This document shows positions 5,984 to 48,612 of a stretch of 64,000 nt of DNA, one piece after another. The position numbers and the translations under genes are program-made. Source of the DNA: Prochlorococcus sp. AG-424-P23 (GTDB taxonomy: Bacteria; Cyanobacteriota; Cyanobacteriia; PCC-6307; Cyanobiaceae); contig QCNK01000002.1 of NCBI GenBank assembly GCA_003210135.1, positions 41,211 to 105,210 of the forward strand. Reading direction: 5' to 3'. The notes below the pieces were generated by a model. The model was not told where the DNA came from. It made no database searches and was given only the letters and a program-made list of their open reading frames with translations. The stretch's first letter is position 1. Each line of letters opens with the position of its first letter.

Positions 5984-6133
5984 AAATAAATAGTTACATG
6001 AAGATTAAACCAAATATAAACATAAACCTTTTTAGAGACTATTTATAAAAAAATTTACCTAAGATAATAATTAAAAAAACATTAAATCTTCGTTTCTATT
6101 TGTAAAAGCTAGACATCCCTAGAAAAATAAGTT

Positions 6134-6139
6134 TATAAT
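6134..6139 (+). promoter_or_regulatory. putative -10 box (TATAAT) of the DUF4278 gene
   Basis: Exact TATAAT 6 nt upstream of the GTAGCAATTGCTAC palindrome. Confidence 0.5.
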
Positions 6140-6145
6140 AATTTG

Positions 6146-6159
6146 GTAGCAATTGCTAC
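6146..6159. promoter_or_regulatory. perfect NtcA-consensus palindrome GTA-GCAATTGC-TAC
   Basis: Exact GTAN8TAC match and full 14-bp palindrome, at the predicted TSS. Confidence 0.55.
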
Positions 6160-6164
6160 TTTTT

Positions 6165-6225
6165 CGTTCACCCTCATTTGAGGGCGCAGTTCGAGTCATA
6201 CCATGGAACGGGGGATGGCCGTGTT
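6165..6225 (+). ncRNA. glutamine riboswitch, downstream-peptide type
   Basis: CGTTCACCCTCATTTGAGGGCGCAGTTCGAGTCATACCATGGAACG: closing stem CGTTC/GAACG, hairpin CCCTC-ATTT-GAGGG, GCGCAGTTCG core; located directly upstream of a short-peptide ORF. Confidence 0.82.
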
Positions 6226-6238
6226 GTCAAATCGAATC

Positions 6239-6412
6239 ATGACTACTTTAACTTACAGAGGTAAAAACTACGTTCAAAACAAAGAAGCTGCTAAAAAGCA
6301 ACTTGTTGAACTTACCTACAGAAGAAACGTATACACCAACAGAATGGATGACGCTTCTTCAAGTAATGAAAAGGCAGAATTAAATTATAGAGGTGTTAAT
6401 TACACTAAATAA
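6239..6412 (+). CDS. DUF4278-type small protein with three (L)xYR-x-x-x-Y repeats
   Basis: MTTLTYRGKNY...LTYRRNVY...LNYRGVNY; the start at ATG 6239 is preferred because the ORF-track start at 6203 lies inside the riboswitch. Confidence 0.85.
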   Translation: MTTLTYRGKNYVQNKEAAKKQLVELTYRRNVYTNRMDDASSSNEKAELNYRGVNYTK

Positions 6413-6428
6413 TTTAATTAAACAAATT

Positions 6429-6458
6429 AAAAGCCCCTTTTTCAGGGGCTTTTTTTTT
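6429..6458 (+). terminator. intrinsic terminator after DUF4278 gene
   Basis: AAAGCCCC-TTTTTCA-GGGGCTTTTTTTTT. Confidence 0.92.
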
Positions 6459-48207: not shown

Positions 48208-48612
48208 AATATTTATTTTCCTTCTTACAGGATATAAAATTACATATATTAAAGTTTATTTACTCATAAACTTAGAATACGTGAATTAGGGGATTTCTCT
48301 CGATAATTTTAGTCCCTATTGTCGCTAGTAATTATAAAGCGAAGTCTTATCAGACTAATTGATTGAACTTGAATTTTCGAATAATCCCATTCTCAGGAAT
48401 ACGCTTCCTATATTTTGGAATTTGCTAAATTTCAGGCGGACTATCAATCATTTAGATTGCCTCCGAACTCAACATTTATAAATTACTCCTTTTTATATTT
48501 TCAGTAAATCCGTAAATATGCTGATTTACTTTTTACTTAATTTGTAAGAGGATTTTAATGATCCTTTGTTTTTTATAGATAAATATAAATAATAAAGTCT
48601 ATAATCTCCTAG

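Follow-up and report, generated by a model that had tools for sequence, protein, structure and literature searches.

Regulation of glutamine synthetase (GS) in Prochlorococcus has been described as unclear (PMC6316151). The closest described relative of the gene analysed here is MED4 PMM1846, a 7 kDa DUF4278 protein with a type 2 glutamine riboswitch in its 5'UTR and an NtcA motif in its promoter (PMC6316151, after Klahn et al. 2018). The likeness is drawn from the published description, no difference between the two is known, and a 2018 review proposes that PMM1846 is a GS inhibitor, a role like that of the inactivating factors IF7 and IF17 (PMC6316151). The main lines of the present finding, namely the three parts and the IF-like guess, are thus already known. 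The additions are the fixed geometry of the NtcA-type box across the family and the occurrence in cyanophages of YRG peptides accompanied by glutamine aptamers; no prior report of the family-wide box geometry or of a quantified absence of the IF segment was found in the literature searched, which did not cover Klahn et al. 2018.

Other described systems share parts of this arrangement. MED4 yfr6 has the same order of promoter, palindrome, Glutamine-II aptamer and YRGxxY peptide, but its peptide has 33 aa and two motifs as against 57 aa and three, and the published accounts present it as non-coding and paired with an antisense RNA (PMC1242208, PMC2518516); the copy of yfr6 in the source genome is locus L001. 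Synechocystis gifB, which encodes IF17, is likewise repressed by NtcA, switched on by a glutamine riboswitch and DUF4278-containing, whereas its aptamer is of type 1 (glnA) and its product ends in a C-terminal IF7-like GS inhibitor segment. Synechocystis PirA (Ssr0692), a 51-aa, NtcA-repressed and ammonium-induced PII binder (PMC8092223), follows a similar control logic, although its NtcA sites lie upstream of the start site and no riboswitch was found described for it. The idea that PirA is itself a DUF4278 protein was dropped, since the literature consulted gives it no support.

Layout of the unit

Within the window (the whole stretch of DNA analysed, 64 kb), positions 6110-6458 form a compact unit of promoter, palindrome, aptamer, 57-aa open reading frame and terminator:

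6110..6139, + strand: sigma-70-type promoter TAGACA-N18-TATAAT, 11 of 12 consensus bases (-35 TAGACA at 6110-6115, 18-nt spacer, -10 TATAAT at 6134-6139)
6146..6159, + strand: NtcA-type palindrome GTAGCAATTGCTAC, located on the expected start of transcription
6162..6219, + strand: Glutamine-II aptamer (RF01704, also called Downstream-peptide or type 2 glutamine riboswitch), score 67.5 bits, cut-off 33
6220..6238, + strand: short leader from aptamer to start codon, judged from its sequence to be the presumed expression platform (translation initiation)
6239..6412, + strand: open reading frame of the 57-aa DUF4278 protein (PF14105, 42.9 bits; codon-position pattern)
6429..6458, + strand: intrinsic terminator, a 10-pair stem (6429-6453) followed by a T-run

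The source genome comprises 1.45 Mb and is closely related to those of Prochlorococcus single cells and of isolates such as MIT 9302; genome size and base composition suggest that these are high-light types. A preliminary description had named the TATAAT, a perfect GTA-N8-TAC palindrome at 6146-6159, the ATG at 6239 and the terminator, all of which were found in place, with TAGACA 18 nt upstream of the TATAAT. Among 81 relatives the -10 element is unvarying and the -35 element almost so, while the spacer and the bases just 5' of the box vary.

The covariance-model search that had been suggested as a check gave a match to RF01704 well over the cut-off (E 3.7e-14, model positions 1-60 of 60). 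The type of aptamer proposed earlier was therefore correct, but its boundaries, given as 6165-6225, were a few bases off. RF01704, Glutamine-II, is the new name of the Downstream-peptide motif, which was first described with open reading frames of 17-100 aa (PMC2864571). Type 2 riboswitches are ON switches, probably acting on translation, and such switching has been shown for another Prochlorococcus Glutamine-II aptamer (PMC6316151, PMC6698751); a structure of the type 2 riboswitch has also been published (PMC6698751). No clear Shine-Dalgarno sequence was found in 6220-6238, and for a competing pairing of the aptamer with the leader before the ATG, 14/200 permutations did as well.

Translation of the frame is indicated by codon-position variation in 81 near relatives, which falls almost wholly on third positions (0.0175, against 0.0006 at first and 0.0004 at second positions). 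The protein is identical in 76/80 related loci and is under purifying selection. Two in-frame ATGs within the aptamer, at 6203 and 6215, were rejected as starts; 6203-6238 has no coding pattern and the upstream ATGs are not kept in relatives, many of which have CCAAGG there, so that the ATG at 6239 is the likely start. These patterns also bear on the proposal that the RNA is the functional product, as a yfr6-like dual-function RNA or one of an antisense pair, with the peptide secondary. That yfr6 was originally reported as non-coding and as having an antisense RNA partner (PMC1242208, PMC2518516) speaks for such a role, but the strong conservation at the amino-acid level, the codon-position pattern and the recurrence of the 55-58 aa three-motif class in the family make it highly improbable.

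Probable nitrogen control at the transcription start

Plain GTA-N8-TAC is not rare in the window (13 occurrences against 6.5 expected), whereas the longer GTAGC-N4-GCTAC is found a single time against 0 expected. The position of the box was examined at 113 Glutamine-II loci sampled from the window genome and its relatives. At 103 of these, GTA-N8-TAC lies 18-24 nt 5' of the GTTC of the aptamer, mostly at 19-20 nt, with the -10 element 6-7 nt 5' of the box; the other 10 are without it. At a background of 0.157 per kb, a box so positioned would be expected by chance at about 0.12 loci. The palindrome is not accidental, since its offset is kept family-wide. In 81 relatives its arms are unvarying and variation is confined to the centre (6152-6154).

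The start of MED4 yfr6 was mapped to a G after a TATA element, with the 33-aa open reading frame at nt 97 (PMC1242208). In the yfr6 copy of the source genome (L001) the ATG is nt 98 when counted from the first G of GTAGC, which places the published start, within 1 nt, on the first base of the palindrome. The box would thus span about +1 to +14, where a bound protein would be placed to block transcription. GTA-N8-TAC at the expected start, with its offset kept in 103/113 loci, is the arrangement expected of an NtcA-repressed promoter. NtcA repression also predicts less yfr6 under nitrogen depletion, which matches the published drop in its expression (PMC1242208).

Alternatively, the 5' end of the transcript could fold through the palindrome into a hairpin of 5 bp. 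A mainly RNA-level role, protecting the transcript or helping the riboswitch with NtcA uninvolved, is suggested by its location at the extreme 5' end, by the inverted repeat that is kept with changed sequence in 13/14 phage homologues (background 24%), and by an association between box positions 5 and 10 (odds ratio 7.7, p 0.002, kinship ignored). We nevertheless regard it as quite unlikely. GTA and TAC are held at a fixed place in 103 host loci, which fits the requirement of an NtcA site, whereas C-A mismatches at positions 5/10 break the fifth pair in 14/103 loci, unlike a pure RNA hairpin. The phage repeat overlaps the -10 element in several phages and would there lie outside the RNA, and the drop of yfr6 upon nitrogen depletion is what NtcA repression predicts (PMC1242208). 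A 5' hairpin role may coexist with NtcA binding.

Dual nitrogen control, with NtcA at the start and a glutamine ON switch behind it, had been put forward in the preliminary description and is well supported by conservation and by work on relatives (PMC6316151, PMC1242208, PMC6698751); NtcA binding at 6146-6159 and the glutamine response of the window copy are predictions from sequence. Under nitrogen limitation, NtcA with 2-oxoglutarate would occupy the palindrome (about +1 to +14) and block RNA polymerase. With plentiful nitrogen NtcA would depart and the leader would be transcribed, and binding of glutamine by the Glutamine-II aptamer would then allow translation of the 57-aa protein. The two steps would form an AND gate for low 2-oxoglutarate and high glutamine. 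We therefore favour, at a probability of roughly 0.7, the reading that the window gene is a stand-alone nitrogen-sufficiency gene behind an NtcA and glutamine AND gate, whose DUF4278 product acts by binding a partner and not as an IF7-type inhibitor. Control of this protein would read nitrogen status twice, and its sequence is identical in most of the related genomes examined.

The DUF4278 protein and its possible targets

The protein matches PF14105 (DUF4278) at 42.9 bits against a gathering cut-off of 25.3, over profile positions 1-57 of 57. It contains three Y-R-G/R-x-x-Y motifs (LTYRGKNY, LTYRRNVY and LNYRGVNY), which in an alignment of 17 class members read LxYRGxxY, LxYRxxxY and LxYRGxxY with unvarying Y, R, G and Y positions. 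No solved structure matched by sequence, and a low-confidence AlphaFold model (pLDDT 63.7, pTM 0.27) gave no fold match in Foldseek. The earlier statement that the function of this DUF4278 protein is not established is correct. The protein would most likely bind a partner in nitrogen metabolism through its three YRGxxY-type motifs.

In other cyanobacteria, IF17-like proteins join DUF4278 to a C-terminal segment with the pattern RxxRQQxxLxRxAxEIGL..RIQGK. This segment is also encoded on its own, in frames of about 70-90 aa, as is the case for IF7. We read this segment as the IF7-like inhibitor part, on the basis of its stand-alone occurrence and of published work on IF17, in which the N-terminal part is dispensable for inhibition and stabilises the protein (PMC6316151). 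A profile of the segment was positive in 31/33 other cyanobacteria of the class, so that the positive control works, and the same profile search found the segment in 0/121 family genomes. Full-length IFs had already been reported absent from picocyanobacteria (PMC6316151). The window protein stops after DUF4278 and, since the IF7-like segment is missing, is no GS inhibitor of the IF7 type. The earlier proposal that it acts on GS as IF7 and IF17 do finds no support in homology, since it matches only the N-terminal DUF4278 part of IF17, reported to be dispensable for GS inhibition, and the segment is absent from the family searched.

Regulation is thus gifB-like while the protein falls outside the IF family, and an IF-like effect through another surface is possible. 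That it is a true IF-like GS inhibitor of picocyanobacteria, co-evolved with the Prochlorococcus enzyme, is an idea also found in PMC6316151. The regulation shared with gifB is in keeping with this, as are the correspondence of DUF4278 to the IF17 N-terminus, a part that makes GS inactivation more effective and the protein more stable (PMC6316151), the small size and R- and K-rich composition of the protein, and the GS gene in the genome. It is nonetheless unlikely, given that neither the protein nor any of the 121 family genomes has the GS-binding IF7-like segment, which was found in 31/33 other cyanobacteria of the class, and that the DUF4278 part is reported to be dispensable for IF17 function (PMC6316151). 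With the segment absent from the family, the search for a target can turn away from the textbook mode of IF action.

By analogy with PirA, the protein might instead bind PII (GlnB) or a PII partner and, when nitrogen is high, alter the synthesis of arginine or the uptake of ammonium. Its control logic and size are similar to those of PirA, but marine picocyanobacteria are reported to lack PirA itself (PMC8092223), and we consider this target possible but rather doubtful. Partner binding behind the AND gate, in a manner other than that of IF7, remains our preferred reading.

Related peptides in host genomes and cyanophages

The riboswitch is present in 72/121 family genomes. The source genome contains four Glutamine-II copies, three of them with GTA-N8-TAC directly 5', and across the Glutamine-II loci the same leader drives several classes of peptide:

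L001 class: 33 aa, two motifs (yfr6 copy)
Window class: 55-58 aa, three motifs; recurs across the family
L003 class: 33 aa, one clear motif
L004: 53 aa, without box
L072, L093, L102-104, L107: 46 aa, without box
L047, L048, L117: about 105 aa, membrane-like, box present, without DUF4278

The fourth Glutamine-II copy, L004:1501-1740 (on contig C7 of the source genome), is without an NtcA-type box and encodes the 53-aa peptide beginning MNNLLQIREKIKRANRLHKAKLL. LxYRGxxY occurs at six sites in the source genome, all in the window protein, the L001 and L003 peptides and a 513-aa protein encoded at L007:1492-3033 (- strand; on contig C5). The 513-aa protein ends in two DUF4278-like YRGxxY motifs and appears PilM-like by eye, with no Pfam support. 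In other cyanobacteria, a second multi-domain DUF4278 family (L200, L204, L205, L211, L221-L223, L226) carries a C-terminal helical segment, ..ERRLxVAxxRGDxxLVxxLExE.

A tblastn search for phage relatives of the window protein found none; phage cassettes were found only by DNA pattern and motif-peptide scans of viral contigs. Two such contigs contain a complete host-like cassette of -10 element, GTA-N8-TAC, Glutamine-II aptamer and YRGxxY peptide: L266 (2264-2500; 73.8 bits, box GTAGCAACCGCTAC) and L239 (1225-1462, - strand; 71.9 bits), the latter adjoining terminase, portal and head genes. L236/L253 are without the box (56.8 bits) and carry DNA polymerase and ThyX genes.

In 378 cyanophage records a peptide of 55 aa, annotated as hypothetical (T4-GC_937), carries two YRG motifs; its gene often adjoins talC or thymidylate synthase genes (L290-L305). 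It resembles the host unit in its YRGxxY motifs and in a short glutamine aptamer-like element that lies upstream in 14/16 phages examined; one of these elements is over the Rfam cut-off (RF01739, 41.1 bits), and the others searched are under it or gave no match. It differs in being a phage gene, in a palindrome that is mostly not NtcA-like, and in its N-terminus, which resembles the host L004 peptide (36-40% over 25 aa; 0/2000 shuffles as good). An inverted repeat stands just 5' of the aptamer in 13/14 phages, mostly with differing sequence and in three as GTA-N8-TAC; that the palindrome is kept while its sequence changes makes an RNA or other role possible. In the 45 nt upstream of the aptamer in L290-L305, the repeat in some cases overlaps the -10 element.

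Glutamine riboswitches of T4-like cyanophages have been mentioned in print (PMC9964418, PMC9602691), and no mention of a link between YRG peptides and these riboswitches in phages was found in the literature searched. The host would make several YRGxxY peptides under the NtcA and glutamine gate, and cyanophages would bring glutamine-gated versions into play during infection. Tentatively, and as one possibility that we would not put ahead of others, YRGxxY peptides could be a nitrogen-sufficiency signal common to picocyanobacteria and their viruses, the phage versions engaging or blocking the same host target. The phage copies suggest that this target may matter in infection, and they offer a second handle with which to find it.

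The window also contains a Yfr8/9 RNA at 48248-48473 (RF02360, 257.8 bits), which belongs to an antisense RNA pair reported to be phage-responsive in MED4 (PMC2518516).
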